The notes under the pieces: generated by a model
Seen by the model: only the letters and a program-made list of their open reading frames with translations
Databases searched by the model: none
Told to the model about the DNA's origin: nothing
Made by a program: the position numbers and the translations under genes
NCBI GenBank assembly: GCA_003169735.1
Contig: PNAP01000030.1
Coordinates: 1 to 49,357, forward strand
Direction of reading: 5' to 3'
DNA: 49,357 nt
Source: Chloroflexota bacterium
Lineage (GTDB): Bacteria > Chloroflexota > Limnocylindria > Limnocylindrales > CSP1-4
Shown here: positions 10,771-46,290 of the stretch, piece after piece
How the letters are laid out: each line of letters begins with the position of its first letter
Position numbering within the stretch: the stretch's first letter is position 1

Positions 10771-10776
10771 TAGGCT
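10771..10776 (+). promoter_or_regulatory. -10 box for leaderless ABC ATPase transcript
   Basis: TAGGCT followed by exactly 6 nt and then GTG 10783. A start site about 7 nt past the hexamer would coincide with the start codon. No Shine-Dalgarno is present. Confidence 0.5.
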
Positions 10777-10782
10777 CGGGGG

Positions 10783-11760
10783 GTGCCCACGCCCGACCCG
10801 TCCACTCCTGACCAGCGGCTGACCGGCAAGGCCATCGAGGTGCACGGCCTGCGCATGGCCTACGGCAAGCTCGAGGTCCTCCGGGGCGTCGATCTCGAGG
10901 TCGAGGCGGGCATGGTCTTCTGCCTGGTCGGGCCCAACGGCGCCGGCAAGACGACGACCATCGAGGTGCTCGAGGGTTACCGGCAACGGACCGCCGGCGA
11001 CGTCTCCGTCCTCGGCGCCGATCCGAGCCGTGGGGGCCGCGGGCTCCGCGATCGCATCGGCATCCTCCTCCAGGACGGCGGCGTCGAGCCATACCTGACC
11101 GTGCGCGAAGTCGTGGACGCCACGCGCGGCTATTACCGTCGGCCACTCCCCGCCGCCGAGTTGCTCGACATCGTCGGGTTGAGCGACCAGGCCAAGGTGC
11201 GCGTCCGGCGCCTCTCGGCCGGCCAGCGACGGCGCCTCGAGCTGGCGCTCGCCCTGGCGGGCGATCCGGAACTGGTCTTCCTCGATGAGCCGACGACCGG
11301 CTTCGACCCGCACGCTCGGCTGGCGGCGTGGGACGCCATCCGGCGGCTGACCGCACGCGGCACGACCGTCGTGCTCACCACCAACGTCATGGACGAGGCC
11401 CAGGCGCTGGCCGACCGCGTGGCCATCATCGTGGCCGGCCGGATCGTGGCGCACGGGACGCCACTCGACGTGGTCGGGGCGCGCGGCCCGGGCTCCGCCA
11501 TCCGCTTCCGGCTGCCCGAGGGCGGGCCGGCGCTGCCGCCGGAGCTGACGCGGATGATCGCCTCGTCGCGCGACGACGTGCTCGAGCTGCGAACGGTCGA
11601 GCCGGCGGCGCTGGTCAACACGCTCAGCGCGTGGGCACTCCAGAACGGATTGCCGCTCCATGACCTGGTGGTCGCTCCGCGCTCCCTGGAGGACGCGTAC
11701 CTGGAGCTGACCGCGGCCGCTGCAGCGTCGGCCCCGGGCGACGAGGTGGCCACGGCGTGA
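10783..11760 (+). CDS. ABC transporter ATP-binding protein (ABC-2 / DrrA type)
   Basis: A 325-aa ATPase that should energise the membrane partner encoded next. Visible motifs are Walker A GPNGAGKTTT, signature LSAGQRRRLELA (a variant of LSGGQ), Walker B ELVFLDEPTTG and the switch region TTNVMDEAQ, where the usual switch His is Asn (TTN rather than TTH). A C-terminal extension of about 80 residues after the nucleotide-binding domain matches the DrrA/NatA subclass of drug or sodium exporters. The GTG start at 10783 is placed by a TAGGCT box 6 nt upstream. The stop overlaps the permease GTG, indicating translational coupling. Confidence 0.9.
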   Translation: MPTPDPSTPDQRLTGKAIEVHGLRMAYGKLEVLRGVDLEVEAGMVFCLVGPNGAGKTTTIEVLEGYRQRTAGDVSVLGADPSRGGRGLRDRIGILLQDGGVEPYLTVREVVDATRGYYRRPLPAAELLDIVGLSDQAKVRVRRLSAGQRRRLELALALAGDPELVFLDEPTTGFDPHARLAAWDAIRRLTARGTTVVLTTNVMDEAQALADRVAIIVAGRIVAHGTPLDVVGARGPGSAIRFRLPEGGPALPPELTRMIASSRDDVLELRTVEPAALVNTLSAWALQNGLPLHDLVVAPRSLEDAYLELTAAAAASAPGDEVATA

Positions 11761-12512
11761 GGACCATCCGGCTCATGTTCCGGCAGGCTCGCCTGGAGCT
11801 TCGAGCGTTCTGGCGCAACCCCGCCGCGGCCTTCTTCACGGTCGTCTTTCCGCTGCTCTTCATGGTCGTTGCCAACGTCGCTCTCGGGCCCTCGTCGGGC
11901 GGCCAGCAACAGGCCGCCGAGTTCTACACGCCGGCCATCATCGCGTTCGCGCTCGTCACGGCGTGCTATACGAACCTGGCGATGGGCGTGGTCGTGGCGC
12001 GCGACGCGGGCATCCTGAAGCGCCTGCGCGGCACCCCCCTGCCTACGTGGATCTACCTCTGGGGACGTATCGCCACCTCGGTCATCGTGGCGGGCGTGAT
12101 GGTCGCCATCGTGGCCGGCTATGGGGCGCTGGCGTACGGCGTCTATCTGCCGGGCGAGCATCTGCTCGCGCTGGCCGTCACCCTCGTTGTCGGCGCCGCC
12201 TCGTTCAGCGCGCTCGGCCTCGCCATCAGCGGCCTCGTGCCCAACGCGGCCGCCGCGCCGGCCGTGGTCAACGCCACCATCCTGCCGCTGCTGCTCATCT
12301 CCAACGTGCTCGTCCGCATCGACGACGGGGCGCTGGCCGACATCGCCGGCATCTTCCCGGTTCGCCACCTGGCCGACGCGTTGTCGCGCGCTTACGACCC
12401 CGCAGCGCCCGCGCAGGGGTTCGCCCTCGATAGCCTCGCCATCGTCGGGGCCTGGGGCGTGGCCGGCCTCGTGATCGCCCTCGTGACCTTTTCGTGGCAG
12501 CCTCGGCGCTGA
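11757..12512 (+). CDS. ABC-2 type permease
   Basis: A 251-aa membrane protein with about six helices. It starts with a basic amphipathic segment (IRLMFRQARLELRAFWRNPAAAFF), then VVFPLLFMVVANVALG, the conserved ARDAGILKRLRGTPLP loop of ABC-2 permeases, and the late FPVRHLADALSRAY segment found before the last helix. It forms the channel for the preceding ATPase (GTGA overlap) and probably exports a small lipophilic compound, lipid or polymer; the cargo is not predictable. It converges with the glycosylase gene with a 28-nt gap. Confidence 0.87.
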   Translation: MRTIRLMFRQARLELRAFWRNPAAAFFTVVFPLLFMVVANVALGPSSGGQQQAAEFYTPAIIAFALVTACYTNLAMGVVVARDAGILKRLRGTPLPTWIYLWGRIATSVIVAGVMVAIVAGYGALAYGVYLPGEHLLALAVTLVVGAASFSALGLAISGLVPNAAAAPAVVNATILPLLLISNVLVRIDDGALADIAGIFPVRHLADALSRAYDPAAPAQGFALDSLAIVGAWGVAGLVIALVTFSWQPRR

Positions 12513-12540
12513 CGTCTCGTGGTTAGCCCCATCCAGTAGG

Positions 12541-13494
12541 TCAGAGCCGCGCGATGGAGCGGATGGGCATCCGTGGCGCGCGGCGCGGCGGCGTGATGCC
12601 GGCCAGTTCGAGCAGCCGCACCGCCCGCGCTCGCTGGCCGCGATACGGCTCGAGGAGTTCCAGCATCCGCGCGTCGTCGCCGCGTAGCTCGCCGGCCAGC
12701 GCCCAACACACCACGTGCGGCAGGTGGAAGTCACCGACGCTCACCGCATCCGGATCGCCGAAGGCCGCACGTGCCGCCTCGGCGGCGGTCCACGGCCCGA
12801 CGCCACGAACAGCCTGGAGTGCGGCCAGGGCCGCCTCCGCCGGCAGTTCCGCTGCCGCCTCCAGCCGCGGGGCCACCCGCGCCACGCGCCGCAGCGTCTC
12901 GGCTCGCCGCTCTTCAAGCCCGAGAGGGTGGAACGCGTAGGCCGGGATGCCGGCAAGCCGCTCGGGCGCGGGAACGACGAACAACTCGACCGGACCCGGC
13001 GCCCGTTCGCCGTACCGCCGGAGGAGTGCCCGGTAACTTCGCGACGCCTCGATGCCCGTGACCTTCTGCTCGATGACGGCCGGCACCAGCGCCTCGTAGA
13101 CGGTATCGCTTCGCCCGAAGCGCAGGCCGCGCCACCGCCGCGCCAGGTCCCGCAGCACGGCATGGCGTGGCTCGAAGGCATCCGGATCGTCTTCCGCGCC
13201 GAGGAGCCTGGGCAGCGCGACCACCGCCCACCCGCCGCCCGGACCCCAGGCGCTCACGCTCAACGCGGAACCGTCGCGCACCAGGCGCACCGTGGCGAGG
13301 CCCTCTGGCGTGCGCGTGGCGCGCCAGATCCCCTCACGACCGATGCGGACGCTCGGGTCCCACCGACCATGCTGGAGATGGCCAAGGGTGAGCCACGGAT
13401 CGACGACGAACCCGAGCTTGACGCGGGCCTCGATGGGGGTCGCCGCGCCGGTCTCGGGACGGCTTCCGGACCCGTCGGCGAGGTTCGTTGCCAC
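12541..13494 (-). CDS. DNA-3-methyladenine glycosylase II-like (HhH-GPD)
   Basis: A 317-aa base-excision repair glycosylase of the AlkA kind, removing alkylated bases. The C-terminal half contains EALVPAVIEQKVT, then the helix-hairpin-helix LQAVRGVGPWTAAEAARAAF, followed by the conserved catalytic Asp in AVSVGDFHLPH. The N-terminal part (DPWLTLGHLQHGRWDPSVRI) is the beta domain of AlkA-type enzymes. The GTG start at 13494 has GGAGG 5 nt upstream (tggaggccgc). No ada or ogt gene lies nearby. It is divergent from the GGDEF gene, and the two starts lie only 62 nt apart. Confidence 0.85.
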   Translation of the reverse strand: MATNLADGSGSRPETGAATPIEARVKLGFVVDPWLTLGHLQHGRWDPSVRIGREGIWRATRTPEGLATVRLVRDGSALSVSAWGPGGGWAVVALPRLLGAEDDPDAFEPRHAVLRDLARRWRGLRFGRSDTVYEALVPAVIEQKVTGIEASRSYRALLRRYGERAPGPVELFVVPAPERLAGIPAYAFHPLGLEERRAETLRRVARVAPRLEAAAELPAEAALAALQAVRGVGPWTAAEAARAAFGDPDAVSVGDFHLPHVVCWALAGELRGDDARMLELLEPYRGQRARAVRLLELAGITPPRRAPRMPIRSIARL

Positions 13495-13556
13495 GCGGCC
13501 TCCATCGACTCCGAGAGCGGTCCTAGGACCTCCGGATGGTAGTGCGGAGGAGTGGG

Positions 13557-14990
13557 GTGCGCGATGGTTCGGCCATGGCCGTGGTGCATCCCCAGTCGCC
13601 GGTCCTTGACCGTGTGCGACGTCTCTTCGATGGGCCAGCGCGCCCACTTCCGACCTGGCGCCGAACCGCGTCCTGGGTGGGGCCGGTGGCGACGATCGTC
13701 GCTGTCATCATCCTTGGCTTCCTCGCCAGCCATGGCGTCAGCATCCCCGACCCCACGCCCATCCTGGTCATCACGGTGGTCGCTGGGGCCCTTGTCGGCG
13801 GACTCCGGCCGGGCCTCGTGGCGGCGGCCATCGCCCTCGCCGATTGCCTGTTCTTCTTCATGGGCCAGCCGTATGCCAGCCAACCGGGCAACGCGCTCCG
13901 GGTGATCCTCCTGGCCGGCTTCATCCCGACCGTGGCGACACTCGTCGGCGCCGCGCGCGACCGCTTCATCGTCGACCGCACGGAGCTGATCCAGCGGCGC
14001 ACGTTCGATCGTGACCTCGACGCCTACGCCAACGCCCTCGTGCGAGAACCGATCGAGAGCCTCTTCAGTGCCATCGTCGACCGCATCCCGACGCTCATCC
14101 CGGGCGACCTCGTGGCCCTGACGCTGGCCGATCCCAGGGATAGCCGCCACTTCGTGCGTGCTGTCCACGGCGCCGATGCCTCGCTGGTCGGGGTCGAGAT
14201 CGTGCCCGGTGTCGGTGTCGCCGGAGCCGCCATCGTCACCCGCGATGTCGTCGTCGCCGAGCGCCTCCAGCCGAACGCCGGCACGGCGCCGGACGCCGCC
14301 CCCGGCTCGACCGTGCTCGGCGCTCCGGTCATCATCGACGGCCGCGTCATCGCCACCATCACCGTCGGGCGGACCACCAACGTCCACCCCTTCACGCCGG
14401 CCGAGCGTGAGCAGATGGCTCGCCTGGCGGGCGCCACGGCGCTCGTCCTCAAGAACGTCGAGCTGCGTACCGAACTGGCCGAGTCGGCGCTGCGAGACCC
14501 GCTCACCGGCCTCTACAACCGCTCCTACCTGGACGCGGCGCTGGACCAGCTGCTCGCGCTGCGTCGGCGGATGAAGCCGGACGACCGGGCAGCGCTGGCC
14601 GTGATCATGTTCGACGTCGACGGCTTCCGCCGCTTCAACGAAGAGCACGGTCGAGCGACCGGCGACCGGGTCCTCCAGGCCGTCGGTACCATCCTCCGGC
14701 AGCGTTTCCGGACGAGCGACACGATGGCCCGCATCGGGGGCGACGGGTTCATCGTGGTGCTGGAGGGCGCGGACCGCGTCATCGCCGCCAGGGCCGCCTC
14801 GGACGTGCGCGACATGGTCCGCAAGCTGACCCTGACCACGGCGCGCGGGGAACCGGTCAAGGTCACCGTCTCGGCCGGCGCGACCTCGTTCGATGACGCT
14901 GACCCCGGCGCCCAGGCGGTCATCCGGACCGTCGAAGCGGCGCTCGACACGGCGCGTTTCTCTGGGCGGGACACCATCGTCTCGGTCTGA
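13557..14990 (+). CDS. Membrane-GAF-GGDEF protein with degenerate active site
   Basis: A 477-aa protein. Residues about 35-125 form four membrane helices resembling the DUF4118/KdpD-type sensor membrane block. About 165-310 is a GAF-like domain (EPIESLFSAIVDRIPTLIP to LVLKNVELRTELAE). About 318-477 is a GGDEF domain (DPLTGLYNRSYLDAAL, MFDVDGFRRFNEEHG). The signature near residue 395 is GGDGF instead of GGDEF or GGEEF, so the metal-binding Glu is missing and diguanylate cyclase activity is doubtful. A receptor or scaffold role is more likely. The GTG at 13557 is chosen because GGAGGAG ends 4 nt upstream; ATG 13575 is an alternative. Confidence 0.85.
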   Translation: MRDGSAMAVVHPQSPVLDRVRRLFDGPARPLPTWRRTASWVGPVATIVAVIILGFLASHGVSIPDPTPILVITVVAGALVGGLRPGLVAAAIALADCLFFFMGQPYASQPGNALRVILLAGFIPTVATLVGAARDRFIVDRTELIQRRTFDRDLDAYANALVREPIESLFSAIVDRIPTLIPGDLVALTLADPRDSRHFVRAVHGADASLVGVEIVPGVGVAGAAIVTRDVVVAERLQPNAGTAPDAAPGSTVLGAPVIIDGRVIATITVGRTTNVHPFTPAEREQMARLAGATALVLKNVELRTELAESALRDPLTGLYNRSYLDAALDQLLALRRRMKPDDRAALAVIMFDVDGFRRFNEEHGRATGDRVLQAVGTILRQRFRTSDTMARIGGDGFIVVLEGADRVIAARAASDVRDMVRKLTLTTARGEPVKVTVSAGATSFDDADPGAQAVIRTVEAALDTARFSGRDTIVSV

Positions 14991-15020
14991 CGCCAGACCC
15001 GCCGACGCGCGGCTCCTGCC

Positions 15021-16418
15021 TTACTGGATCCCGAGGATCTGACCGAGCGACCAAACCATCGTCGAGCTGAGCACGGCCATGACCATCATCAGCGGCAGCA
15101 GCCGGGGGCGAACGCGTGCCGCTTCGTGCGACCCGGCCACGCTGCGCAGCGGGACACCGCCGCGTCGCACCCGCTGGGCGGCCGACGCACCGACGATGCA
15201 GCCGCCCACGACAGTTGCCAACTGCACGCCCCAGAGCAGGTCGGCCGGGATCCACGCGACGGCATGGAAGGTCGCCGTCCCGAACAGGTCCCAACCCTGC
15301 TGGAACGGGTCGGAGAGCGCCACGACGATGCGCTGACCGTCCACCAGCAGCGTCGAGAGCGAAGCCGCGATGAGGAAACCGGCCGCCACGGGGATGAGGC
15401 CCGCCGTCATCGCCGGAACGCCGACCGAGCGCGCCGCCCAGAGGATCGCGCCGACCAGGATGAGCAGGAAGATGGCCAGGACGATCGTCCCGCCGATCGT
15501 GTCGAGGAGCCCGAAGAAGTCGAAGAAGACCGATGTCTGCGCGACGCTCCCGTAGACCATGGAGCCGACGGCGAGGGCGATGAGCGCGAGCAGACTGGTC
15601 GACCAGGGGCCTTCGGCCAGGCCACTGGCGAAGCTGCGGCGCCGAACGCCGTTCGGGTCTTCGGCATCAAGCGCGAACGGTGCCATCCGCCCGAGCAACC
15701 GGAACCAGACGCTGAAGGTCTCGCCGCTCGAGCGCCAGGCGTCGCGCCCGAACTGGCCCATCGCAGCGACCGTAACGATCGTGTAGCCGACCAGCACGAG
15801 GCCGAGCAGGCGCGCGCCGGTCACGAAGAAGACCAGTTCGAGCCAGGCGAAGAAGGCGAAGCCGGCCACCGCCGGCCAACTCGCGAGCTTCGTCGCATCG
15901 CCGGTGACCACATCAGCCCTGACCGCGCCGCTGCCCGACCTGAGCCGCCGAGCAACGGCCGCCGCGATGTCATGGAGCGTCGCGAACGGGTCGATCCAGT
16001 TCCACGCCGGCCCGACGAGCGCCGAGACGATGGCCAGCCCGACCCAGCCGTAGGCCCACAGGAAGAGCGACGCGACATCCGCCTCGTTGTCGCCCCCGAC
16101 GAGCGCCTGGGCGACGATCCAGAGCCAGGCCACGAGCCCCGCTGCGCGCAATCCTGCGCGCAACCAGCGCGGAACGTGATGAACGCGGCCCGTCGCAGCA
16201 TCCCCGGACGGACCGGCATCGACCAGGGCGAAGAAACCGAATGAGAGCGCTACCGTCAGCGTCGCACCGCCCACGTAGACGAGCAGCGGCAACGCGGCGC
16301 CCACCGAGCCGCTCGCCACATGGGCCTGAGCTGTGCCCGGCAGCTCCACACCCAGCGCCGCCGCGGCCACGGTCGCCGTCGCGACCGCGCGCGTCACCCG
16401 ACCATGGGAGGCGGTCAC
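15021..16418 (-). CDS. Polytopic membrane protein, 'fenitrothion hydrolase'-annotated family type
   Basis: A 465-aa protein with an N-terminal signal-like segment ending AQAHVASGSVG and about ten further hydrophobic segments. WAYGWVGLAIVSALVGPAWNWIDPFATLHD and the F(F)FxWLELVF region resemble large membrane proteins of Actinobacteria and Chloroflexota often labelled fenitrothion hydrolase. That label has little biochemical support here. No catalytic motif is evident. The GTG start lies 19 nt downstream of the xth stop on the same strand, so the two are likely co-transcribed. It converges with the GGDEF gene with a 30-nt gap. Confidence 0.55.
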   Translation of the reverse strand: MTASHGRVTRAVATATVAAAALGVELPGTAQAHVASGSVGAALPLLVYVGGATLTVALSFGFFALVDAGPSGDAATGRVHHVPRWLRAGLRAAGLVAWLWIVAQALVGGDNEADVASLFLWAYGWVGLAIVSALVGPAWNWIDPFATLHDIAAAVARRLRSGSGAVRADVVTGDATKLASWPAVAGFAFFAWLELVFFVTGARLLGLVLVGYTIVTVAAMGQFGRDAWRSSGETFSVWFRLLGRMAPFALDAEDPNGVRRRSFASGLAEGPWSTSLLALIALAVGSMVYGSVAQTSVFFDFFGLLDTIGGTIVLAIFLLILVGAILWAARSVGVPAMTAGLIPVAAGFLIAASLSTLLVDGQRIVVALSDPFQQGWDLFGTATFHAVAWIPADLLWGVQLATVVGGCIVGASAAQRVRRGGVPLRSVAGSHEAARVRPRLLPLMMVMAVLSSTMVWSLGQILGIQ

Positions 16419-16437
16419 GGACGCGGGCCGGACGGCG

Positions 16438-17208: not shown

Positions 17209-17324
17209 GGCCGTTGGGCCTCCTTGATCAGTGGCACGGCGCCCGGGAATTCTGCGGTCCTGCGCCTGGACGGCGATAGTGATCTTCACGCTGGGCCTTC
17301 AGGTTTGCCCGAGTATCGTATCCT

Positions 17325-17358
17325 GACGGTGGCCGCTGACGGTGGCCGCCGACGGTGG
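17325..17358 (+). repeat. Three 13-bp direct repeats at a promoter
   Basis: GACGGTGGCCGC(T/C) starts at 17325 and 17338, with a third partial copy (GACGGTGG) at 17351, an exact 13-bp period. A TATCCT -10-like box at 17319-17324 abuts the first copy, so the repeats occupy the predicted transcript start and leader of the 113-aa gene. They could be an operator array or an RNA element. Confidence 0.5.
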
Positions 17359-20002: not shown

Positions 20003-20008
20003 AGATTA
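20003..20008 (-). promoter_or_regulatory. -10 box for leaderless SpoIID-like gene
   Basis: TAATCT on the minus strand, then exactly 6 nt, then ATG 19996. No Shine-Dalgarno precedes the ATG. Confidence 0.5.
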
Positions 20009-20099: not shown

Positions 20100-20105
20100 T
20101 ACCCT
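20100..20105 (+). promoter_or_regulatory. -10 box for Rieske oxygenase gene
   Basis: TACCCT, the same hexamer as before two other genes in this window, followed by 10 nt and ATG 20116. The predicted leader is only a few nucleotides. Confidence 0.42.
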
Positions 20106-28831: not shown

Positions 28832-28837
28832 AGTGTA
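28832..28837 (-). promoter_or_regulatory. Internal -10 box before the Gfo/Idh gene
   Basis: TACACT on the minus strand, 6 nt before GTG 28825, inside the 47-nt gap after the aminotransferase gene. It would allow separate expression of the downstream half of the polysaccharide operon. Confidence 0.5.
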
Positions 28838-31681: not shown

Positions 31682-31687
31682 ATGATA
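31682..31687 (-). promoter_or_regulatory. -10 box of the polysaccharide operon
   Basis: TATCAT on the minus strand, 7 nt before ATG 31674. The GTG 6 nt further upstream lies only 1 nt after the hexamer and could not be in a transcript starting here, so this decides the start. Confidence 0.5.
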
Positions 31688-32349: not shown

Positions 32350-32355
32350 ATGCTA
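32350..32355 (-). promoter_or_regulatory. -10 box of the small Rieske gene
   Basis: TAGCAT on the minus strand, 8 nt before ATG 32341, with no Shine-Dalgarno. Confidence 0.42.
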
Positions 32356-33645: not shown

Positions 33646-34077
33646 CTACCCCACGCGCCCGAAGCGCCGCACCGGCCAGTACCGGAACCATGGCCGCCCG
33701 ACGATCGTGGCCGGGTCGATCGGCCCGAAGACGCGCGAGTCGGTCGAGGCGTCAGGGGCGTCGCCGACCAGTGCCACTCGGCCGTCAGGCTGGACGGCAC
33801 CGACGCGCTTGATCAGGACCCGCCGCGCATCGCGCGGGTCGGGTACCACGACGAGATCGCCCGTCCGCGCCGCGCGGCTGCGGAACGCATCGGGATCGAC
33901 CAGCAGCCAATCTCCGTCGACCAGGGTCGGCACCATGCTCGACCCCCGGACGGCGACCCTCGCGGACCAGGAGCGGAGAAGGCGCCGGAAGTCGGCCGCC
34001 CCCCCCGATGACGTGGAGCGCCCGCCGCCTAAGCGGTGTGCAGTCGGGTCGCGGCCGGCCCGCCGGTCTCGCGCCAC
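33646..34077 (-). CDS. sodX: Nickel superoxide dismutase maturation protease (S26/S24-like)
   Basis: A protease of about 143 aa when read from GTG 34077, overlapping the end of sodN by 49 nt. The signal-peptidase-like core is VRGSSMVPTLVDGDWLLVDPD (Ser in GSSM), VLIKRV (catalytic Lys) and LVGDAPDASTDSRVFGPI, with a terminal PWFRYWPVRR. SodX-type proteases remove the leader of NiSOD so that the free N-terminal His can bind nickel. No ATG, GTG or TTG lies between the sodN stop and the Met in SSM. The only in-frame upstream start is the GTG inside sodN, and an 8-C run (33999-34006) lies between them. Confidence 0.8.
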   Translation of the reverse strand: MARDRRAGRDPTAHRLGGGRSTSSGGAADFRRLLRSWSARVAVRGSSMVPTLVDGDWLLVDPDAFRSRAARTGDLVVVPDPRDARRVLIKRVGAVQPDGRVALVGDAPDASTDSRVFGPIDPATIVGRPWFRYWPVRRFGRVG

Positions 34078-34454
34078 ATCATGTCGATCTTGTCGATCAG
34101 GTCGAGCAGCTTCTGGGCCTCGGCGATGTCGACCGTCCGCTTCACCTGGGACGCCTGCTTGGACGCCTTCCAGCACACGTCGTGCAAGTCGGGGAACTTC
34201 TCGACGTGCTCCGGCTTGAAGTAGTCGTGCCACATCACGTCGATGTGGTGCTTGGTCAGCTCGGCGCGCTCCTCCTTGACGGCGAGGCAGCGGGTACGGA
34301 ACACGTCGTCGGAGGACTCGGCGTACTTCTGGATGATCTTGTAGCACGACTCCGCCTCGATGCGGGCCTGCGCCGGGTCGTAGACACCGCACGGGATGTC
34401 GCAGTGGGCGTGGACGGTTCGGCGGGGCGCGAACGCGCGCAACAGGATGTTCAT
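34029..34454 (-). CDS. sodN: Nickel superoxide dismutase
   Basis: A 141-aa NiSOD precursor. A 16-residue leader (MNILLRAFAPRRTVHA) is followed by HCDIPCGVYDP, the nickel hook in which His1, Cys2 and Cys6 of the mature protein bind Ni. The four-helix body includes SCYKIIQKY, LTKHHIDVMWHDYFKPEHV and KLLDLIDKIDMMWRETG, all typical of this family. It dismutates superoxide. ATG 34454 follows GAGGAG at a good distance. sodX follows immediately and overlaps, the usual two-gene arrangement. The leader lacks a Sec or Tat signal, so the enzyme is probably cytoplasmic. Position 4 of the hook is Ile rather than the common Leu. Confidence 0.96.
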   Translation of the reverse strand: MNILLRAFAPRRTVHAHCDIPCGVYDPAQARIEAESCYKIIQKYAESSDDVFRTRCLAVKEERAELTKHHIDVMWHDYFKPEHVEKFPDLHDVCWKASKQASQVKRTVDIAEAQKLLDLIDKIDMMWRETGGPAATRLHTA

Positions 34455-34578
34455 CTTCAGCTCCTCGACCATGCGGACGCTCGTGGACGTTTGGCGCGAA
34501 CTCGGATTCGAGCATCCGTCGGTCCCGATTGTGCGCCGCCCGGCCGGGGCGTGCACACGGCGGAGCGCTCGCTGGTCG

Positions 34579-34584
34579 TACCCT
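34579..34584 (+). promoter_or_regulatory. -10 box for leaderless lipoprotein gene
   Basis: TACCCT followed by exactly 6 nt and GTG 34591. Confidence 0.5.
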
Positions 34585-34590
34585 GAGGCC

Positions 34591-35097
34591 GTGACCACCC
34601 GTTCGACCCTCCTGGCGGGCGCACTGCTGGCCAGCGTCGCGGTGGCCTGTGCGTCGGCAAGCCCGTCACCGACACCCGACCCGAGCGACAGCGCTGGTGC
34701 CTCGCCGACGGTCGCGCCGCTGGCCACCATGCGCCTTCTCGCGAGTTTCCCGCCGGAGGCCGGCTGGCGACCGATCCTCGAGCTCGTCTCGGGCGCCGGC
34801 GGCCTGGACCATGGCACCTTCGACCCCAGCGGCACGTACCGCATCGAGTTCGACTGCGTCGGCGCGGGCAGCTTGAAGGTGCGCGTCGAGTCGGCCGTCG
34901 TCGCCAGCCGCGACTGCACGCTCGACCAGATCGACGATCCGACCATCATCCACGGTGCCAGCGGCAAGCTGCGTGCCGCCGTCACGGTCGATGTCGCGGC
35001 CACGGCGGGCGCCACCAGCGGCGGCGCCACGGCCACGGCCACGGACGCCAACGTCGATTGGATCGTCCGCTTCGAGGTGCCCGTTCCTACTGAGTGA
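34591..35097 (+). CDS. Small lipoprotein, unknown
   Basis: A 168-aa protein starting VTTRSTLLAGALLASVAVACAS, a signal peptide with lipobox VAVAC, then a Ser/Pro/Thr linker. The ectodomain has WRPILELVSGAGGLDHGTF, YRIEFDCVGAGSLKVRVES and SRDCTLDQIDD, so two cysteines (in FDCVG and RDCTL) could form a disulfide. An Ala/Thr-rich stretch precedes the C-terminal strand DWIVRFEVP. The family is not recognised. It starts leaderless 6 nt after TACCCT. It ends convergently with the TauE gene, overlapping it by 11 nt. Confidence 0.62.
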   Translation: MTTRSTLLAGALLASVAVACASASPSPTPDPSDSAGASPTVAPLATMRLLASFPPEAGWRPILELVSGAGGLDHGTFDPSGTYRIEFDCVGAGSLKVRVESAVVASRDCTLDQIDDPTIIHGASGKLRAAVTVDVAATAGATSGGATATATDANVDWIVRFEVPVPTE

Positions 35098-36058: not shown

Positions 36059-36065
36059 TATACTA
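36059..36065. promoter_or_regulatory. Overlapping divergent -10 boxes (TauE and cysD)
   Basis: The 7-bp sequence tatacta reads TATACT rightwards (36059-36064) and TAGTAT leftwards (36065-36060). Left, it is 7 nt before the TauE GTG 36052. Right, it predicts a cysD start near 36071 with a leader of about 60 nt. Two polymerases could not open it at once. Confidence 0.5.
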
Positions 36066-38431: not shown

Positions 38432-38437
38432 TATCAT
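38432..38437 (+). promoter_or_regulatory. -10 box of the LysM gene
   Basis: TATCAT, 8 nt before ATG 38446; no Shine-Dalgarno. Confidence 0.42.
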
Positions 38438-38445: not shown

Positions 38446-39696
38446 ATGACCGAACGGCCGCCGCAGTACGGGCTCGAGCCCCAGGCGTGCCCCTTCATCG
38501 CCCTCGACGAGGATCGCGATCGGCGGCTCGACGTCCCCGACGCACGGCATCGGTGCTACGCCGAGCCCGTCCCCCAGCCACGAGCCGAAGCGCATCAGCG
38601 GGCGTATTGCCTCACGCCTGCCTTTGCGGCGTGCCCGATCTTTCTCGACTGGGCCGCCCGAGCCTCAGCTGACCCGATCGCCACGCGGCGGACGGTCCCG
38701 ACCCCGGCGCAACTTGCCCGGCCGGGCGACGATAGTCCGGCCCCGCGGCCGACCGACCCGGGCCAGCGCGCCTGGGCGGCACCGCCACCGTGGACGGGCG
38801 AGGGCGCCCTTCAGCCCCGACCGACGCCGGCGAGCGAGCAGCTCGGCGCGTTCGCGGAGCCGAGCGATCCACCCGATCGTGATCTATCGCTCGGAGGCAT
38901 CTCGTCGGATACGGCGGCGGCTCTGGCGGCGGCGCGGGCGCCCGTGCCGAGTGCCAGCGCGCCAGAGGCCGCCGTGCCTGCCGAGGCTCCCGAGGCTCTC
39001 GAAGCTCCCGCCGTCTTCCCGATGGATGACGAGGTGCCAGGCTTCCTGGCCGGGCGCGACCGCGCCACCGATGCCCCCTCGGCTGATCTGGCGACCGTTT
39101 CGGCCGGGACGTTGCGTCCCACGCTTTCGCCGAGCCTCGCCGCGCTCAGCGCCCCGCAAGATGAGTCAGCCGTCCCGACGGCATCGCCTCGCTTCACCAG
39201 CCAGGCCAAGCCCGCGCCGCCCAACCGTCCCGGCTCCGGCGGCGAGTGGTCCGGACAGCGACGCTATGAGGGATACTCGATGGCCCGCACCAAGATCGGT
39301 TGGCAACAGGCGCCGGGAATCATCATCGCCTTCATCGGCGTGCTCATCACCGTACTTGCCATCTACCTGGTCATGGGGGTGCAGGGCGGCGGTTCCGTCG
39401 GGCCCGATGCGACCCGCGACCGCGGGGGTTCCCCGACGCCGTTCGTCTCACCGACCCCGACGCCCAGCCCATCGCCCTCGCCGGTGACCTATACCGTCAA
39501 GAGTGGCGATTCGCTGTTCACCATCGCCAAGCACTACGGCATCACCGTCGACCAGATCGCCTGCTTCAACGCCATCACCGATCCGAACATCCTCCAGGTC
39601 GGCCAGGTCCTGGCCATCCCCGAGGATACCTACGCGTGCCCCGGCGCCAGCGCCAGTGCGTCACCGAGCGCGGGGTCGTCCAGCAGCGCGCCGTAG
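38446..39696 (+). CDS. Four-cysteine N-terminal domain protein with one TM and extracytoplasmic LysM
   Basis: A 416-aa protein. Residues 15-63 hold four cysteines in ACPFIAL, HRCYAE, AYCLTP and ACPIF (C15, C37, C55, C63), a possible metal or Fe-S site. A long disordered Ala/Pro/Glu-rich region leads to one membrane helix at about 289-312 (PGIIIAFIGVLITVLAIYLV). A Ser/Pro linker leads to a LysM domain at about 347-391 (YTVKSGDSLFTIAKHYGITV) that binds peptidoglycan. By topology the Cys domain is cytoplasmic and the LysM outside, so the protein could link cell state to the wall. It converges with an NTF2-like gene (12-nt gap). Confidence 0.77.
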   Translation: MTERPPQYGLEPQACPFIALDEDRDRRLDVPDARHRCYAEPVPQPRAEAHQRAYCLTPAFAACPIFLDWAARASADPIATRRTVPTPAQLARPGDDSPAPRPTDPGQRAWAAPPPWTGEGALQPRPTPASEQLGAFAEPSDPPDRDLSLGGISSDTAAALAAARAPVPSASAPEAAVPAEAPEALEAPAVFPMDDEVPGFLAGRDRATDAPSADLATVSAGTLRPTLSPSLAALSAPQDESAVPTASPRFTSQAKPAPPNRPGSGGEWSGQRRYEGYSMARTKIGWQQAPGIIIAFIGVLITVLAIYLVMGVQGGGSVGPDATRDRGGSPTPFVSPTPTPSPSPSPVTYTVKSGDSLFTIAKHYGITVDQIACFNAITDPNILQVGQVLAIPEDTYACPGASASASPSAGSSSSAP

Positions 39697-39708: not shown

Positions 39709-40038
39709 CTACCTCGGCGAGACGTTGATGGCGGTGATCCGGCCGGCCTCCACACGGAAGGTGGCGTCGAGGTGCTGCGATGGCGCGCCGGGTCGGACCA
39801 CGAGCAGGTCCGCCTCATAGGTGTTGCCCATCTCGCGCACGGCGCCCGGGATCATCTTGAGGCCGGCATCGGCGCGCAGGAACCAGCCACCGATCTGCTC
39901 GGAGCCGCGCAACGTCCGGACGTTGCCCTGGACGTGGACGCGCATCTCGGCCTTTTCGTCCATCAGATCGAGCGCGCCCTTTCGGTCGCCCGAATTGAGC
40001 TTCTCGAAGAACGTCTCCATCGTGTCGATCGCACCCAT
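39709..40038 (-). CDS. NTF2/SnoaL-like protein
   Basis: A 109-aa cone-shaped alpha+beta fold candidate: MGAIDTMETFFEKLNSGDRKGALDLMDEKAEMRVHVQG, then LRGSEQIGGWFLRAD and LDATFRVEAGRITAINV. This is the usual order of helices and strands in the NTF2-like superfamily, which includes both enzymes and binding proteins; no catalytic pair can be assigned. ATG 40038 is placed by a TAGACT box 6 nt upstream. Monocistronic by position. Confidence 0.72.
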   Translation of the reverse strand: MGAIDTMETFFEKLNSGDRKGALDLMDEKAEMRVHVQGNVRTLRGSEQIGGWFLRADAGLKMIPGAVREMGNTYEADLLVVRPGAPSQHLDATFRVEAGRITAINVSPR

Positions 40039-40044
40039 CCGGCG

Positions 40045-40050
40045 AGTCTA
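40045..40050 (-). promoter_or_regulatory. -10 box for leaderless NTF2-like gene
   Basis: TAGACT on the minus strand, exactly 6 nt before ATG 40038. Confidence 0.5.
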
Positions 40051-40072
40051 GCAATGCTGCCAGAAGCCGCTG

Positions 40073-42445
40073 CTAGAAGCCGCCTCCTGCGCCGCCACCG
40101 CCACCGCCGCTCCCGCCGCCACTGAAGCCGCCGGAGCTGAACCCGCCGCCTCCGGAGCCGGTCGACGCGGGTGAGTTTCCGACCGTGCCGATGGCCGACA
40201 TCATGCCGCCGAAATCGGGCAGGGCACCGCTCGACATCAGGCCCGGTGCGAAGCCGCCGAAGCCGCCGCCCCCACCCACGCCGGCGAGGCTGCTTCCGTA
40301 CCAGGCCGGGAACCAGATGTTGGTCGTGGTCACCGAGCCCGAGTTGACATCCTCGATGCTCCGCTGGAGCACGTCTTGGACCTGGGCCTGGAGGCCGAGC
40401 GCGACGCCCCACACGGCGGCCTGGTCGGGCGTCTCGATCCACGGCAGGTTGGCGTCCTTGACCACCTGGTCCATCGAGCGTGCCTGCTCCATCGTCTTCT
40501 GGAGCGTCCGCCGATACGCTTCGAGCATGGCGTAGAGCATCGCCCCGGCCATCGTCCGCTGCGGCATGACGCGGCTGAGGATGATGGTCACGACGCCGGC
40601 CGCGATGACCGCCACGCCCGCCGCGAGGAGCCCGGAACTGGGCAGGTTGAAGGCGATGATGGCGATGACCACGCCGAGGATCAGCTCGAGCGAACCGCGG
40701 ACGCTCCAGCGCTCGATGGACTTGCGCGGCGCCTCGCGGAACCACTTGCGCTCGGTGACGTGGTCCTCCAGCTTGGCATCGAACGCGTGCACGGACTTGC
40801 CGAACTCGAGCAGGTCGTCGGGCTCGATGTAGCCGGCGCCCTCGGTCCCGGCGATGGTGTGGAGCCGCTCGAGGGCGTACAGCTCGGCGGCATCGAGCGG
40901 GCGCTTGCGGTTGAGAGCGACACTCGGGTCATTGGTATCCGGCTCGGTCAGTTTGATGCCGACCTTGTCCTCCTCCTGTTGGAACGCCACTTCGCCATGA
41001 CTGGCAAGGTCGAGCATCGCCGTGGTCAGGGCGTGGCGACTCGAGGAACCGCCGTACAGGAGTGCGCCGGCCGGCGGCGTCAATTCGGCGGGCGGCGCGG
41101 GCATCAGGATCGACGGATCGTCGAGGTAGTGCGGGTCCCGGCCGTAGCGCAGCCAGGACTCCGCGGCCCAGCCGGCAAGGATGAGGAACGCGACCGGCCC
41201 GACGATGAGGCCGAGGATGGCGTTGATCTGGCGCGCCTGGTCGAGGGCCGCGGCATGTTCCGGCGTCGCGTTGGCGTCGACCGCGTCGATGGCTGCCATC
41301 AGGGCGCCGTCGAGGTCGCACCCCTCGAGCAGCGGCAGCATCTGGTCGTTGAAGATGGCCTGGCGCTCGTCGTTGGTTAGATACGCGGCCCGATAGCCGT
41401 CGGCGCCGAAGAGGGAGACCTGGCCGTGGCACAGGCTCCGATCCATATCGAACACGATGGCCAGCCCGTCATCGAAGCCGGCCCGGCCGACGTGCCATTG
41501 GTCGATGAGCGCCTGGGCATCGTCGTCCGCGCTCTGGGCCGTGCTGTCCGGCTTGACCTGCGTGTAGACGACGACCTCGGCGCCCGTCCGCTGTTCGATG
41601 CCGGCGATGATCTTGGACGCGGCGGCGACCGTCGACGGCGCGAAGACACCGGCGTAGTCGTACACCACCTGGCCGGTGATCGGATCCGGATAGGGCGGTC
41701 CGGCGGCCGGCGGCGGTCCGACATCAGGACCGAAGCTCCGGCTCGGGCTCGGGCTGGGCGAGGGAGTCGTGCCCGGAGCCGGCGTAGGGGTCGGCGCTGG
41801 GATCGCGCTCGGTTCCGGGATCGGCGTGGCCGATGCGATCGGCGCGGCGACGGTGACGGCGGTGGTGGCCGAGGTCAGCGATCCCAGCCAATGGCCCCCG
41901 CTCAGCTCATCCGCAGTGGCCGAATCGACCACCGTCTGGACGGCGTCACTGTCGAACCCCTGGACCTGGAGTCCGACCGACGCGGCCCCGCCGATGACGG
42001 CCGTGGTCTGGTTCGCGTCGAATTCCCAGATGAGGGCGACCGCGCGGACGTCGGGGCCGCCGAGGTCCCACTGGTTGAGCAGCAGTTCGGCGTCGCCGCG
42101 GGCGATGCCCTCCGAACCGGACGCGTCCGGCTTGACCTGCGTGTAGACAATGATGTCGAGCTTGCTCGTCGATGCCAGCTGACGGAGGTTCTGGTTGGCC
42201 GTCTGCCGCGCGGCCTGCAGGAAGACCCCCGCCTGATCGTAAACGTACCTGTCGGGGACCTGATCGATGAACGGCGGACCGGCGTTGTCGCCCGGTGCTC
42301 CGTCGGCGATGCCGCCGGCAAGGAGAAGCATCGCCAGCCCCGCGAAGCCCGCCAGCAGGGCCGCGGCCGTCCACCGAGCAGGCCGATCCCTCACCCGGCC
42401 CGGCGTGGATGCGTGACGCACCGTCTGTGTCGCTGCCACCGGCAC
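40073..42445 (-). CDS. Double-TPM-domain membrane protein with DUF2207-like part and Gly-rich tail
   Basis: A 790-aa protein. After a signal/anchor (about 25-48) there is a first TPM-like domain from about 60 (YVYDQAGVFLQAARQTANQ, DIIVYTQVKPDASG) and, beyond a Pro/Ser linker, a second from about 260 (VVYDYAGVFAPSTVAAASK, EVVVYTQVKPDSTAQ). A helix near 420 (LGLIVGPVAFLILAGW) leads to a cytoplasmic region with LTPPAGALLYGGSSSRHALTT as in DUF2207 proteins. Two helices near 595-640 and a Gly/Ser-rich tail follow. The TPM copies look like an internal duplication. Function is unknown. The start is GTG 42445; GTG 42439, 8 nt after a TACCGT box, is an alternative. Confidence 0.78.
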   Translation of the reverse strand: MPVAATQTVRHASTPGRVRDRPARWTAAALLAGFAGLAMLLLAGGIADGAPGDNAGPPFIDQVPDRYVYDQAGVFLQAARQTANQNLRQLASTSKLDIIVYTQVKPDASGSEGIARGDAELLLNQWDLGGPDVRAVALIWEFDANQTTAVIGGAASVGLQVQGFDSDAVQTVVDSATADELSGGHWLGSLTSATTAVTVAAPIASATPIPEPSAIPAPTPTPAPGTTPSPSPSPSRSFGPDVGPPPAAGPPYPDPITGQVVYDYAGVFAPSTVAAASKIIAGIEQRTGAEVVVYTQVKPDSTAQSADDDAQALIDQWHVGRAGFDDGLAIVFDMDRSLCHGQVSLFGADGYRAAYLTNDERQAIFNDQMLPLLEGCDLDGALMAAIDAVDANATPEHAAALDQARQINAILGLIVGPVAFLILAGWAAESWLRYGRDPHYLDDPSILMPAPPAELTPPAGALLYGGSSSRHALTTAMLDLASHGEVAFQQEEDKVGIKLTEPDTNDPSVALNRKRPLDAAELYALERLHTIAGTEGAGYIEPDDLLEFGKSVHAFDAKLEDHVTERKWFREAPRKSIERWSVRGSLELILGVVIAIIAFNLPSSGLLAAGVAVIAAGVVTIILSRVMPQRTMAGAMLYAMLEAYRRTLQKTMEQARSMDQVVKDANLPWIETPDQAAVWGVALGLQAQVQDVLQRSIEDVNSGSVTTTNIWFPAWYGSSLAGVGGGGGFGGFAPGLMSSGALPDFGGMMSAIGTVGNSPASTGSGGGGFSSGGFSGGGSGGGGGGAGGGF

Positions 42446-42473
42446 TAACGGTAGCCGATGCGCGACCGCGTGT

Positions 42474-44429
42474 TCAGGCCGGCGCTCGCGCGGCCTCGGG
42501 CACGGTGGCGCGGATGCGACGCACCAGCTCGGCGCCCATCTCGTACCGGCCGAAGCTGGGCATGATGTAGGTGCCCTGGACGAGGCCGCGCATCTGGCTG
42601 ATCAGGTCGAGTGCCATCTCCAGGCCGACCTCCGCGCCCCGATCGCCCGCCGCGGCCATCGCCGCGCGGACCGTGTCCGGGATTGAGATGCCGGGCACCT
42701 CGTTGTGGAGGAACTCGGCGTGGCGCGCCGTATGGAGCGGGAGGACGCCGAGCAGCACCGGGCGCGGCAGGTGATCGCCCCACCGCCGCGCGGCACGCTC
42801 CATGAACCGCTCCCATTGCTCGCGGGCATAGATGGGCTGGGTCATCACCAGGTTCGCACCGGCATCGAGCTTGCCGGCCAATCGGTCGAGCTCCTGTTCC
42901 GGGTCGGCCGAGGTGGGGTCGACGGCGCAGGCGATGGTGAAGCCGGCCGGCGCGCCGATCGACTTGCCAGCCTGGTCCTCGCCCCGGTTGAGGCGCTGGA
43001 GGATGCCGATGAGGCCGGTCGAATCGATGTCCCAGATGCCCGTCCCGGTGGGGTAGTCGCCGACGCGGGGCGGGTCGCCGGTGAGGGCCAGGATGTTTCG
43101 GACGCCGAGGGCATGGGCTCCCAGGAGCTCCGATTCGAGCGCCATCAGGTTGCGGTCGCGGGTCGTGAAGTGGACCAGGCACTCGAGGTCGAGGTCGTGC
43201 TGGATGCCGAAGGCGACGGCCATCGCACCCATGCGCACGCGCGCCATCGCACTGTCGGAGATGTTCACGAGATCGACGCCGGCGTCCTGGAGGAGGCGGG
43301 CGGCCTCGATCGTGCGCTCGATGCGGACGGAGCGCGGCGGGTCGATCTCGACGCTGATGACGAAGCGTTTGTCGGCGAGGGCCTGGGCGAGCTGGGTCGG
43401 CGGTGGTGGCTCCTGGATGGAGCTGCTGGAGCCAGTGGGCCGGTCGCTGAGCGAGGCGCGCGGCGAGGCGCCCTGGCCAAGCGGCTCGGCCGAGGTGGCG
43501 GCGGCCGTGCCGCGTTCACGGGCGAGCGCCTGGTCGAGAGCTTGCCGCATGGCCGCGATGTGCTCGGGTGTCGTGCCACAGCAACCGCCGATGATGCGCG
43601 CGCCGGCGGCCAGGAAGCGCTTGACCGCCTCGGCGAAGTAGTCCGGGCCGGCAGCGTAGACGAACTGGCCCTCGGTGCGCTGGGGGAGGCCGGCGTTGGG
43701 CATGATGACTCGGGCCAGGTCGGCCGAGGGACGGCCCATCTGCTGGAGCGCGTCCAGGCAGACGATCGGCCCGACACCGCAGTTGACGCCGACCGCATCG
43801 ACGCCGACGGAGGCCAGGGCCGTGGCGGCGGTCTGCGGATTGGTGCCGTCCATGGCCACCAGCTCCTCGCCGAAGGTCATCTCGGCGATGATCGGCAGGT
43901 CGCATATGGCGCGGGCCTCGTCGATGCCGAGCAGGAGTTCGTCGAGGTCGCTGAACGTCTCGAAGACGAGCAGGTCGGCGCCGCCCTCGAGAAGGCCTTC
44001 GATCTGCTCGCGGAAGGCTGAGCGGATCTCGGCGGTCGGCGGGCGGTCCGGGCCGCGAACGGCTGCGCCGAGGGGTCCGATGCTGCCGGCGATGAGCACG
44101 TCCCTGGCCGCCACGTCGCGGGCTTCCCTTGCGAGCTGAGCCGCGCGGCGGTTGAGCTGGGAGGCTCTGGCGGCGAGGCCGTACGGCGCCAAGCGGAGGC
44201 GATTGGCCCCGAAGGAGTTGGTCTCGATGGCGTCCGCGCCAGCCCGGATGTACTCGCGATGGATCGCCCCGATCAGGTCCGGGTGCGTCTCGACCAGCTC
44301 GTCCAGCGAGGCTCTCTGCGGGATGCCGCGACTGAAGAGCAGCGTGCCCATCGCGCCGTCGAAGAGGATCGGCCGGGCAGCCAGCCGCTCAGCGAACGCG
44401 AGGCGCGGATGCGGCAGTGGAACGGCCAT
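42474..44429 (-). CDS. Bifunctional homocysteine S-methyltransferase / methylenetetrahydrofolate reductase
   Basis: A 651-aa fusion. Residues about 1-310 are a Zn-dependent homocysteine methyltransferase domain with FDGAMGTLLFSRG, ETNSFGANR, and the Zn cysteines in VGVNCGVG and IIGGCCGTTPEH. After a Ser/Pro linker, residues about 340-640 are MetF-like: VISVEIDPPRS, NILALTGDPPR, the IACAVDPTSADPEQELDRL region and GANLVMTQPIYA. It makes 5-methyl-THF and a methyl transfer to homocysteine, but has no cobalamin domain, so the methyl donor for the first domain is uncertain. ATG 44429 lies 7 nt after TACCCT. Confidence 0.92.
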   Translation of the reverse strand: MAVPLPHPRLAFAERLAARPILFDGAMGTLLFSRGIPQRASLDELVETHPDLIGAIHREYIRAGADAIETNSFGANRLRLAPYGLAARASQLNRRAAQLAREARDVAARDVLIAGSIGPLGAAVRGPDRPPTAEIRSAFREQIEGLLEGGADLLVFETFSDLDELLLGIDEARAICDLPIIAEMTFGEELVAMDGTNPQTAATALASVGVDAVGVNCGVGPIVCLDALQQMGRPSADLARVIMPNAGLPQRTEGQFVYAAGPDYFAEAVKRFLAAGARIIGGCCGTTPEHIAAMRQALDQALARERGTAAATSAEPLGQGASPRASLSDRPTGSSSSIQEPPPPTQLAQALADKRFVISVEIDPPRSVRIERTIEAARLLQDAGVDLVNISDSAMARVRMGAMAVAFGIQHDLDLECLVHFTTRDRNLMALESELLGAHALGVRNILALTGDPPRVGDYPTGTGIWDIDSTGLIGILQRLNRGEDQAGKSIGAPAGFTIACAVDPTSADPEQELDRLAGKLDAGANLVMTQPIYAREQWERFMERAARRWGDHLPRPVLLGVLPLHTARHAEFLHNEVPGISIPDTVRAAMAAAGDRGAEVGLEMALDLISQMRGLVQGTYIMPSFGRYEMGAELVRRIRATVPEAARAPA

Positions 44430-44436
44430 GCGCGAG

Positions 44437-44442
44437 AGGGTA
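44437..44442 (-). promoter_or_regulatory. -10 box of the methyltransferase/MetF gene
   Basis: TACCCT on the minus strand, 7 nt before ATG 44429; no Shine-Dalgarno. Confidence 0.5.
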
Positions 44443-44570
44443 CAGGCAGGTGCCAAGTGAGGGTGGTTGGTCGGCCGCACGGGAAACACCGTTGATTGGG
44501 TGTACGGTGCGGCGGATCGGAGCCATTGCCCATCGCGCCCGCGCTCGAAGCACGCTCGTGGAGGTCATTC

Positions 44571-44939
44571 ATGGATGAGCAGGATGTTCGGGTACGCGCA
44601 GAGGCGCTGTGTGCCGCGCTCGTGGGTGGCGATGTCGACAAGGTGATCGCGGACTTCAGCGAAGAGCTCCATCACAACCTCGGGGAGGTGTTGGCCCTGC
44701 TGTTGCTTCCATCGAGCGAAGCGACCATCGAATCGATCGATCATGGCGCCGGCTCTGGTTTCGTGGTCGTCCTTCGACTCCGTGGCCCGGCCGAGGAAGT
44801 CCAGATCCAAACGCGGTGGAAAGATCGCGACGACCGGCCGACCGTCATCGAATTGAGCCACCTGAGCAGGACCGAGTTGACCGCCCAAGCCGTGGACGAG
44901 GGCGAGGCGACCGACGGCGAGGCAGCCGAGTCGAACTAG
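44571..44939 (+). CDS. Small acidic protein, possibly NTF2-like
   Basis: A 122-aa protein starting MDEQDVRVRAEALCAALVGGDVDKVIADFSEEL, with LLLLPSSEATIESIDHGAGSGFVVVLRLRGPAEEVQIQTRWKDRDDRPTVIEL forming alternating strands and an acidic C-terminus. The order of helices then strands resembles NTF2-like proteins, but the call is weak. ATG 44571 has GGAGG 7 nt upstream. A TACGGT box at 44503-44508 predicts a leader of about 55 nt, so this is a leadered gene divergent from a leaderless one. Confidence 0.55.
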   Translation: MDEQDVRVRAEALCAALVGGDVDKVIADFSEELHHNLGEVLALLLLPSSEATIESIDHGAGSGFVVVLRLRGPAEEVQIQTRWKDRDDRPTVIELSHLSRTELTAQAVDEGEATDGEAAESN

Positions 44940-44990
44940 CGACGCACCGATCAGTGACAGAGCCTCAGGCGTGGGTGCGACGATGCGCGC

Positions 44991-46256
44991 ATGTCGCTCG
45001 ATACGCCCACGTCGGCTGAGCCGGAGGATCGGTCGTACCGCGCCCTGTTCCGGGTTCCGACGCTCGGTCGGATCCTGATCTCGATGCAGCTGGCCCGCAT
45101 CGCCCAGTCGATGCTGACCGTGGCGCTGGTGCTGTTCGCCCTGGCCGAGTACCACTCGCCGGCGCTCGCCGGCATCGTCACGTTCGTGAGCGTCGCGCCG
45201 GGCCTCGCCGCTGCGCCCATCGTCGGGGCGTTGCTCGACCGTTATGGCCGCCTCCGCCTGATGACGCTCGACTATCTCGTGACGACCGCGGCGATGGTGC
45301 TCGTGGCGACGCTCGCCACGATCCACGAGCTACCCGATTGGCTGCTCGTGGCCATCACGTTCGTGTTCGGCGTCACGTCGATGTTCAGCTCCTCGGGGCT
45401 GCGCAGCCTTTTCCCGCTCATCGTCCCGACGCATCTCTGGGAACGTGTCAACGCCATCGACTCGAACGGCTACCTGCTGGCGACCATCGTCGGGCCGCCG
45501 GTCGCCGCCACCCTGGTCACGACCATCGGCGGACCGGCCACGTTCGGCCTGATGGCCATCCCCTTCGCCGTCGCCGCGGTAGCGCTCGTGGGGGTGACGG
45601 AACCCGTGGCGTCCGGCAGCGCGCCGGGTGGCTTGCTGCGTGAAGCGCTCATCGGGATCCGCTACTTCTGGCGCAACGCCACATTGCGCGGCCTTGGCGT
45701 GGCATTCGCCGTCAGCAACGTCGCCGGCGGTTTCGGCACCATCCTGATCCCCGTCATCATCCTCGATCGACTCTCCGCCCCGGCGCCGATGGTCGGCTTC
45801 GCCTTCGCCGTGTCGGGCGTGGTGGGTGTCGCATCGGCGCTCCTAGCGGGGCGCATCGACTCGAATGGCCGCGAGTGGCGGATGCTGGTCGTTGCCATGA
45901 CCGGGCTCGCGGCGGCGTCCGCGCTGCTCTACCCGGCGGCCACGGCGGGCGACCAGTTCGTCGGCCTCGCCTGGATCTTCGGCGCGATGGCCATCCTCGG
46001 TCTCAGCAGCGGGCTGTCTGACGTGGCACTTTTCACCGTCCGGCAACGGCGCACGGATCCCCAGGTGTTCGGCCGTGCCATCACCATCTCGATGGCGTTC
46101 AACTACTCGGGTTTCCCGATCGGTGCGGCCATCGCCGGATCGCTGGTCACGGCCTCGCTCGAGTTCGCCATCGTCCTGGCCGTCGTCGCAGGCGTCGTCG
46201 GCATGCTCCTGGTCGCGGCGATGGTGCCGCGACTCGTGCCGATGAGGGCTGATTGA
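44991..46256 (+). CDS. MFS transporter
   Basis: A 421-aa permease with about 12 helices. The loop between helices 2 and 3 reads GALLDRYGRLRLMTLDYL, the major-facilitator GxLaDrxGrrr signature. The central region has LWERVNAIDSNGYLLATIVGPPV, typical of enterobactin-exporter-like (EntS) or DHA3-type efflux proteins. It is probably a drug or siderophore-type exporter; the substrate is not predictable. It begins 51 nt after the small acidic gene. Confidence 0.88.
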   Translation: MSLDTPTSAEPEDRSYRALFRVPTLGRILISMQLARIAQSMLTVALVLFALAEYHSPALAGIVTFVSVAPGLAAAPIVGALLDRYGRLRLMTLDYLVTTAAMVLVATLATIHELPDWLLVAITFVFGVTSMFSSSGLRSLFPLIVPTHLWERVNAIDSNGYLLATIVGPPVAATLVTTIGGPATFGLMAIPFAVAAVALVGVTEPVASGSAPGGLLREALIGIRYFWRNATLRGLGVAFAVSNVAGGFGTILIPVIILDRLSAPAPMVGFAFAVSGVVGVASALLAGRIDSNGREWRMLVVAMTGLAAASALLYPAATAGDQFVGLAWIFGAMAILGLSSGLSDVALFTVRQRRTDPQVFGRAITISMAFNYSGFPIGAAIAGSLVTASLEFAIVLAVVAGVVGMLLVAAMVPRLVPMRAD

Positions 46257-46278
46257 GGGCGCTGCGGAGCGGAAGCCA

Positions 46279-46284
46279 TATCCT
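46279..46284 (+). promoter_or_regulatory. -10 box for leaderless MgtA-like gene
   Basis: TATCCT followed by exactly 6 nt and GTG 46291. Confidence 0.5.
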
Positions 46285-46290
46285 CTGCCA

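Follow-up and report, generated by a model that had tools for sequence, protein, structure and literature searches.

TANNNT boxes at start codons as a probable leaderless promoter signature in a Candidatus Limnocylindria-type Chloroflexota genome

Boxes and genes in the window

The window analysed in this study is a stretch of 49,357 nt (contig PNAP01000030.1 of assembly GCA_003169735.1) from an uncultured Chloroflexota bacterium, in which 11 hexamers of the form TANNNT lie immediately upstream of ATG or GTG codons. An earlier note made from the sequence had listed these hexamers as -10 boxes of leaderless genes, that is, of genes whose mRNAs have their 5' end at the start codon or directly beside it. 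Each of the 11 boxes was confirmed at its listed position, with a spacer (the bases between the box and the start codon) of 6-8 nt. The host genome measures 3.06 Mb (124 contigs, 92.65% complete, ~69% GC), of which 791 kb was examined; gene starts were called by a self-trained codon model that is blind to upstream sequence. This model replaced a caller trained on the longest open frames, which was unsuited to DNA of 71-74% GC.

Six of the 11 box starts were chosen exactly by the blind caller. These are GTG 10783 of an ABC transporter ATPase gene (TAGGCT, 10771-10776, plus strand, spacer 6), ATG 32341 of a Rieske protein gene (TAGCAT, 32350-32355, minus strand, spacer 8), ATG 38446 of a LysM protein gene (TATCAT, 38432-38437, plus strand, spacer 8), ATG 40038 of a SnoaL-like protein gene (TAGACT, 40045-40050, minus strand, spacer 6), ATG 44429 of a homocysteine methyltransferase/MTHFR gene (TACCCT, 44437-44442, minus strand, spacer 7) and GTG 46291 of a P-type cation ATPase gene (TATCCT, 46279-46284, plus strand, spacer 6). 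Four other box starts, all on the minus strand, are in frame with the blind call and 12-39 codons upstream of it: ATG 19996 of a SpoIID/FG-GAP protein gene (TAATCT, 20003-20008, spacer 6, 12 codons), GTG 28825 of a GFO/IDH/MocA oxidoreductase gene (TACACT, 28832-28837, spacer 6, 16 codons), ATG 31674 of a polysaccharide biosynthesis epimerase gene (TATCAT, 31682-31687, spacer 7, 13 codons) and GTG 36052 (TAGTAT, 36060-36065, spacer 7, 39 codons). The last had been described as also fitting the layout; its box and spacing do fit, but its start is uncertain and the weakest of the set.

The remaining start, GTG 34591 (TACCCT, 34579-34584, plus strand, spacer 6), opens a frame of 168 aa with no Pfam match and was not called because of an overlapping call on the opposite strand (34029-34730). 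Codon statistics over 34591-35097 favour the plus-strand frame (+27, as against -3 or less for the others), suggesting that a genuine gene at this position is plausible; its homologues are weak (E ~3e-5 to 4e-4), too weak to test the start. Two further candidates lie outside these 11: TACCGT (42448-42453, minus strand), 8 nt before GTG 42439 and not listed in the earlier note, and a weak one, TACCCT (20100-20105, plus strand), 10 nt before ATG 20116.

Spacing, operon-head bias and initiation signals across the genome

The boxes occupy a sharply defined position at gene starts throughout the part of the genome that was examined. At the blind starts of 234 divergent heads, TANNNT was found 0, 26, 14, 8, 6 and 5 times at spacers of 5, 6, 7, 8, 9 and 10 nt, respectively, against a background of ~1.07 boxes per position. 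The peak at spacer 6 puts the first T of the box at -12, matching the criterion by which the TANNNT class has been defined (~12 bp upstream). Among 216 operon-internal genes, only 7, 2, 1 and 4 boxes were found at spacers 6, 7, 8 and 9. A box at spacer 5-8 is therefore present at 48 of the 234 divergent heads and at 10 of the 216 internal genes.

In a second spacing test, made because the blind starts are imprecise, any in-frame start within 40 codons was accepted, and other spacings, given the same freedom, were counted as controls. Of the 442 heads outside the window, 113 (26%) have a box at spacer 6-8, compared with 7-19 (~2-4%) in non-overlapping windows of three spacings (binomial P ~8e-64). 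Within the window, the box is found at no fewer than 11 of the 34 heads, against a control rate of ~3.2-3.4% (P ~4e-9 to 9e-9). Across the 234 divergent heads of the genome sample, the proportion reaches ~35% (81/234). Another 310 kb from this genome yielded 19 head boxes where 1.5 were expected. After background subtraction, boxes at spacer 6-8 precede ~22% of the heads and ~17% of genes overall, a rough estimate that depends on the caller. The same pipeline detected 9 head boxes versus 1.0 expected on Thermus thermophilus pTT27, run as the positive control, and none versus 1.0 expected on the Thermomicrobium roseum megaplasmid, run as the negative control.

TANNNT is short and degenerate, and some starts in the window lie upstream of the blind call, so a product of chance and free choice of start codon had to be considered. 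The control spacings refute this explanation, and the signal is repeated in further genome samples and kept in 28 of 29 sequences of the LysM family (see below); the probability that we leave to chance is practically nil. The claim that the signature exceeds chance thus held in a motif scan of the genome, with off-peak spacings near background, as did the contrast between operon heads and internal genes that had been suggested as a check.

The box logo consists of T, A, three weakly constrained bases and T, and the middle is not AT-rich. Two bases before the box, G is found in 53-66% of cases; in other bacteria, the G of the extended -10 element occupies this position. No clear positional excess of TTGACA-like sequences was detected 16-18 bp upstream of the box, either genome-wide or at the heads in the window, as the earlier note had remarked for the heads that it had checked. 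A stand-alone CarD protein was considered as an explanation for promoters lacking a -35 element and rejected: the only match to PF02559 lies inside an open frame of 1262 residues that most likely encodes a repair-coupling factor. This match (contig C80 of the host genome, 30401-30577) is also the only CarD-domain match, and no stand-alone CarD was found in the 92.65% complete genome.

Genes with a box show no excess of Shine-Dalgarno (SD) sequences (3.9% versus 3.5% in shuffled sequences). In contrast, SD sequences precede 17.8% of heads without a box (5.2% shuffled) and 19.4% of internal genes without a box (5.0% shuffled), with a peak ~7 nt before the start. Two classes of genes therefore coexist, as had been suggested, and under our strict five-base SD test many genes have neither signal. 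If the motif were instead a translational element in the leader, such as an AT-rich or protein S1-binding site, rather than a promoter, it would be located where such elements occur. However, such an element should serve internal genes as well, whereas the motif is concentrated at operon heads; its information resides mostly in three positions (T, A and T) around a middle that is not AT-rich, and its distance from the start codon is cut off sharply at 6 nt. We regard a translational element as extremely unlikely.

Conservation and distribution in Chloroflexota

The homocysteine methyltransferase/MTHFR protein has its closest relatives in metagenome-assembled genomes of Chloroflexi, some of them labelled as Candidatus Limnocylindrales (58-84% identity), while Thermomicrobia-type homologues show ~50% identity. 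The size and GC content of the host genome are compatible with the averages of the class Candidatus Limnocylindria (2.39 Mb and 68.9% GC; PMC10608941). The host is thus an uncultured Candidatus Limnocylindria-type member of the Chloroflexota, an assignment based on this protein and the class averages rather than on a genome tree. An actinobacterial host, at which the motif hints, is ruled out by the relatives of the MTHFR protein. Two short contigs of the assembly (C8 and C9; loci L247 and L248) have 0% GC and apparently consist entirely of unread bases.

The best conserved case is the LysM gene at 38446. Its box is kept at 6-9 nt in 28 of 29 family sequences, including that of the window, in the form GTAT[C/G]AT, in which G-T-A at the beginning and A-T at the end are invariant in all 28. 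Most columns of the box approach 2 bits, whereas those further upstream have diverged (mean, 0.35 bits). Three relatives start with GTG, all with a spacer of 6, and most of those starting with ATG have a spacer of 7 or 8. The LysM protein (38446-39696; loci L182-L210) carries a conserved N-terminal stretch rich in Cys and was matched in 40 of the 41 family genomes searched, although some of these matches comprise the LysM domain only.

The near-invariance of GTAT[C/G]AT in this family, and its presence also upstream of ATG 31674, might point to an alternative sigma factor dedicated to leaderless genes, or at least to those with this form of the box. Genome-wide, however, TAT[C/G]AT occurs 12 times where 10.4 are expected, which is no excess beyond the composition of its columns, and GTAT[C/G]AT occurs 7 times where 4.4 are expected, a slight excess; moreover, no conserved element was seen upstream of the box. 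A dedicated sigma factor is quite improbable on these grounds, and a separate GTATSAT regulon is unsupported by the genome-wide counts.

For the MTHFR gene at 44429, the box was found at 6-10 nt in 29 of 41 Limnocylindria orthologues (among loci L044-L085), and it shifts with the start codon in orthologues whose N-terminus is extended or shortened. The box is missing from all 10 Thermomicrobia-type orthologues; in three of them (L096, L118 and L119), the SD sequence GGAGGTGA precedes the start instead. The ABC transporter gene at 10783 was uninformative in this respect, as the box was found in two of six sequences including that of the window, and the gene has many paralogues; the one relative with the box (L213) has the same box at the same spacing.

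With blind calls, the signal was detected in all four Limnocylindria families sampled (f1-f4), f3 being represented by only 2 heads with a box versus 0.3 expected. Outside Limnocylindria, it was detected in f44 and f9. In f14, f21, f30 and the Thermomicrobia-type loci, it was missing or did not rise above background, and in f22 it was equivocal. Whole-genome counts of the pattern relative to a reversed-pattern control, a coarse screen, separated the families roughly in the same way, with median ratios of 2.0, 1.9, 1.6 and 2.0 in f1, f2, f3 and f44, respectively, and of ~0.8-1.1 in f14, f22 and f21. Family f4 was missed by the counts (ratio, ~0.9), but 6 of its heads have a box at the gene level versus 0.3 expected. 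In f44 (L134-L138 and L165-L168), a Chloroflexota family outside Limnocylindria, genome G133 has 5 head boxes versus 0.5 expected. Eisenbacteria loci (L087, L088, L093, L094, L108, L114, L117 and L123) have 5 boxes at spacer 7-10 among 23 heads, with a background of 0.18 per position; these numbers come from few genes.

Probable leaderless initiation, start codons and relation to known systems

The position of the box, its bias towards operon heads, the exclusion of SD sequences and the conservation between species were all observed directly, and they support the promoter reading both genome-wide and across related species. TANNNT is very probably the housekeeping -10 box that gives rise to leaderless mRNAs at operon heads. 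According to this model, the box would be the -10 element of the housekeeping sigma factor, and RNA polymerase would start ~7 nt downstream of its last T. With a spacer of 6 nt, +1 would then coincide with the first base of the start codon, and spacers of 7-8 nt would yield either transcripts starting exactly there or leaders of 1-2 bases. The geometry of the -10 element thus suggests mRNA 5' ends at or beside the start codon. The resulting SD-free mRNAs would be read by ribosomes recognising a 5'-terminal AUG or GUG, while part of the remaining heads and part of the operon-internal genes would initiate by ordinary SD pairing.

Nearly all boxes stand before an ATG or GTG codon, although TTG is not significantly depleted (see below), and the two start codons differ in their spacing. 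In a pool of the host genome and other Limnocylindria (L044-L085, L124-L143, L161-L164, L177-L180 and L261-L280; none of the following P-values is corrected), the ratio of spacer 6 to spacers 7-8 is 68:28 for GTG starts and 97:109 for ATG starts (p=1.2e-4). At spacer 7, a pyrimidine stands just before GTG in 21 of 22 cases, compared with 49 of 81 for ATG (p=0.0015). GTG starts at spacer 6 show no such avoidance, with a purine before the start in 24 of 68 cases (p=0.005 between spacers). This pattern is as expected if the polymerase prefers to start at a purine and if a GTG is functional only at the very 5' terminus.

These data also bear on the possibility that the -10 box is real and that transcription begins slightly ahead of the start codon, leaving leaders of only 1-5 nt. 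Spacers of 7-10 nt are common among ATG genes, and a purine directly before ATG is frequent at spacers 7-8, as such leaders would predict. On the other hand, divergent heads of the host most often have a spacer of 6 and none has a spacer of 5, and GTG genes prefer spacer 6 and, at spacer 7, hardly ever carry a purine at -1. Very short leaders are a possible but rather unlikely alternative to leaderless mRNAs.

Several points weigh against the leaderless reading or its details. All gene starts are calls of a purpose-built codon-model caller, and the start-codon effects were spotted post hoc and do not reach significance when the other Limnocylindria genomes are taken by themselves (p=0.07 and 0.33). 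The box is lacking in 12 of the 41 Limnocylindria MTHFR orthologues. No 16S rRNA gene was found in the assembly, which is 92.65% complete, and the anti-SD sequence is therefore unreadable. The primary sigma gene is broken near region 2 by unread bases, and region 2.4 was dropped as evidence because the sole gene with a sigma70 region 1.2 has unread bases at the key site.

The TANNNT leaderless class was defined by Zheng et al. 2011 (PMC3160421), who reported leaderless genes to average 19.2% of genes in Actinobacteria and, of 12 Chloroflexi genomes, to be present in just 4, where they made up 4.0-5.7%; TAtaaT was given as the signal in medium-GC Chloroflexi. The parallel with Actinobacteria and Deinococcus drawn in the earlier note stands as far as the architecture is concerned: the TANNNT genes of Actinobacteria and Deinococcus-Thermus share the consensus, the first T ~12 bp upstream and the coexistence with SD genes. 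The present case differs from that class in lineage, and the observation is more interesting because the host lies outside the groups named. The rough share of ~17% obtained here is comparable with the actinobacterial average only approximately, since the methods differ.

Our literature search, in which the GeneMarkS-2 genome tables, possibly covering related genomes, were not included, yielded no paper that mentions both Limnocylindria and leaderless genes, and no mention of Candidatus Limnocylindria as leaderless was seen in the two translation-initiation surveys searched. What we describe thus appears to be the TANNNT leaderless layout already known from other lineages, now in a Chloroflexota class for which no report was found. 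A broader proposition is that Candidatus Limnocylindria are leaderless-rich at an Actinobacteria-like level, that their Thermomicrobia-type relatives retain SD sequences for orthologues, and that leaderless GTG starts are more tightly constrained, with the mRNA beginning exactly at GUG; we give this combination an even chance. If it is true, an uncultured environmental lineage joins the leaderless-rich bacteria, and a gene that lacks a leader in one class but is preceded by an SD sequence in another would allow gain or loss of the trait to be studied within a phylum. Gene finders that expect SD sequences may misplace starts in Limnocylindria genomes, for which the conserved box-to-start spacing could be used as a start-site predictor. 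The GTG effect also provides a testable prediction on start-site choice.

For leaderless translation in mycobacteria, a 5'-terminal ATG or GTG is both required and sufficient (Shell et al. 2015; PMC4633059). That system, demonstrated by RNA-seq, ribosome profiling and reporters, whereas ours is deduced from sequence, likewise uses SD sequences in leadered genes. Compared with the mycobacterial restriction of start codons, TTG is rare here but not significantly depleted in the pooled set: it starts 0 of 77 box genes versus 23 of 399 others in the first set (p=0.036), and 8 of 310 versus 59 of 1421 in the pooled set (p=0.25). In Thermus thermophilus pTT27, which belongs to a different phylum, the same pipeline gave a spacer peak at 6-7 nt, as in the genome studied here.
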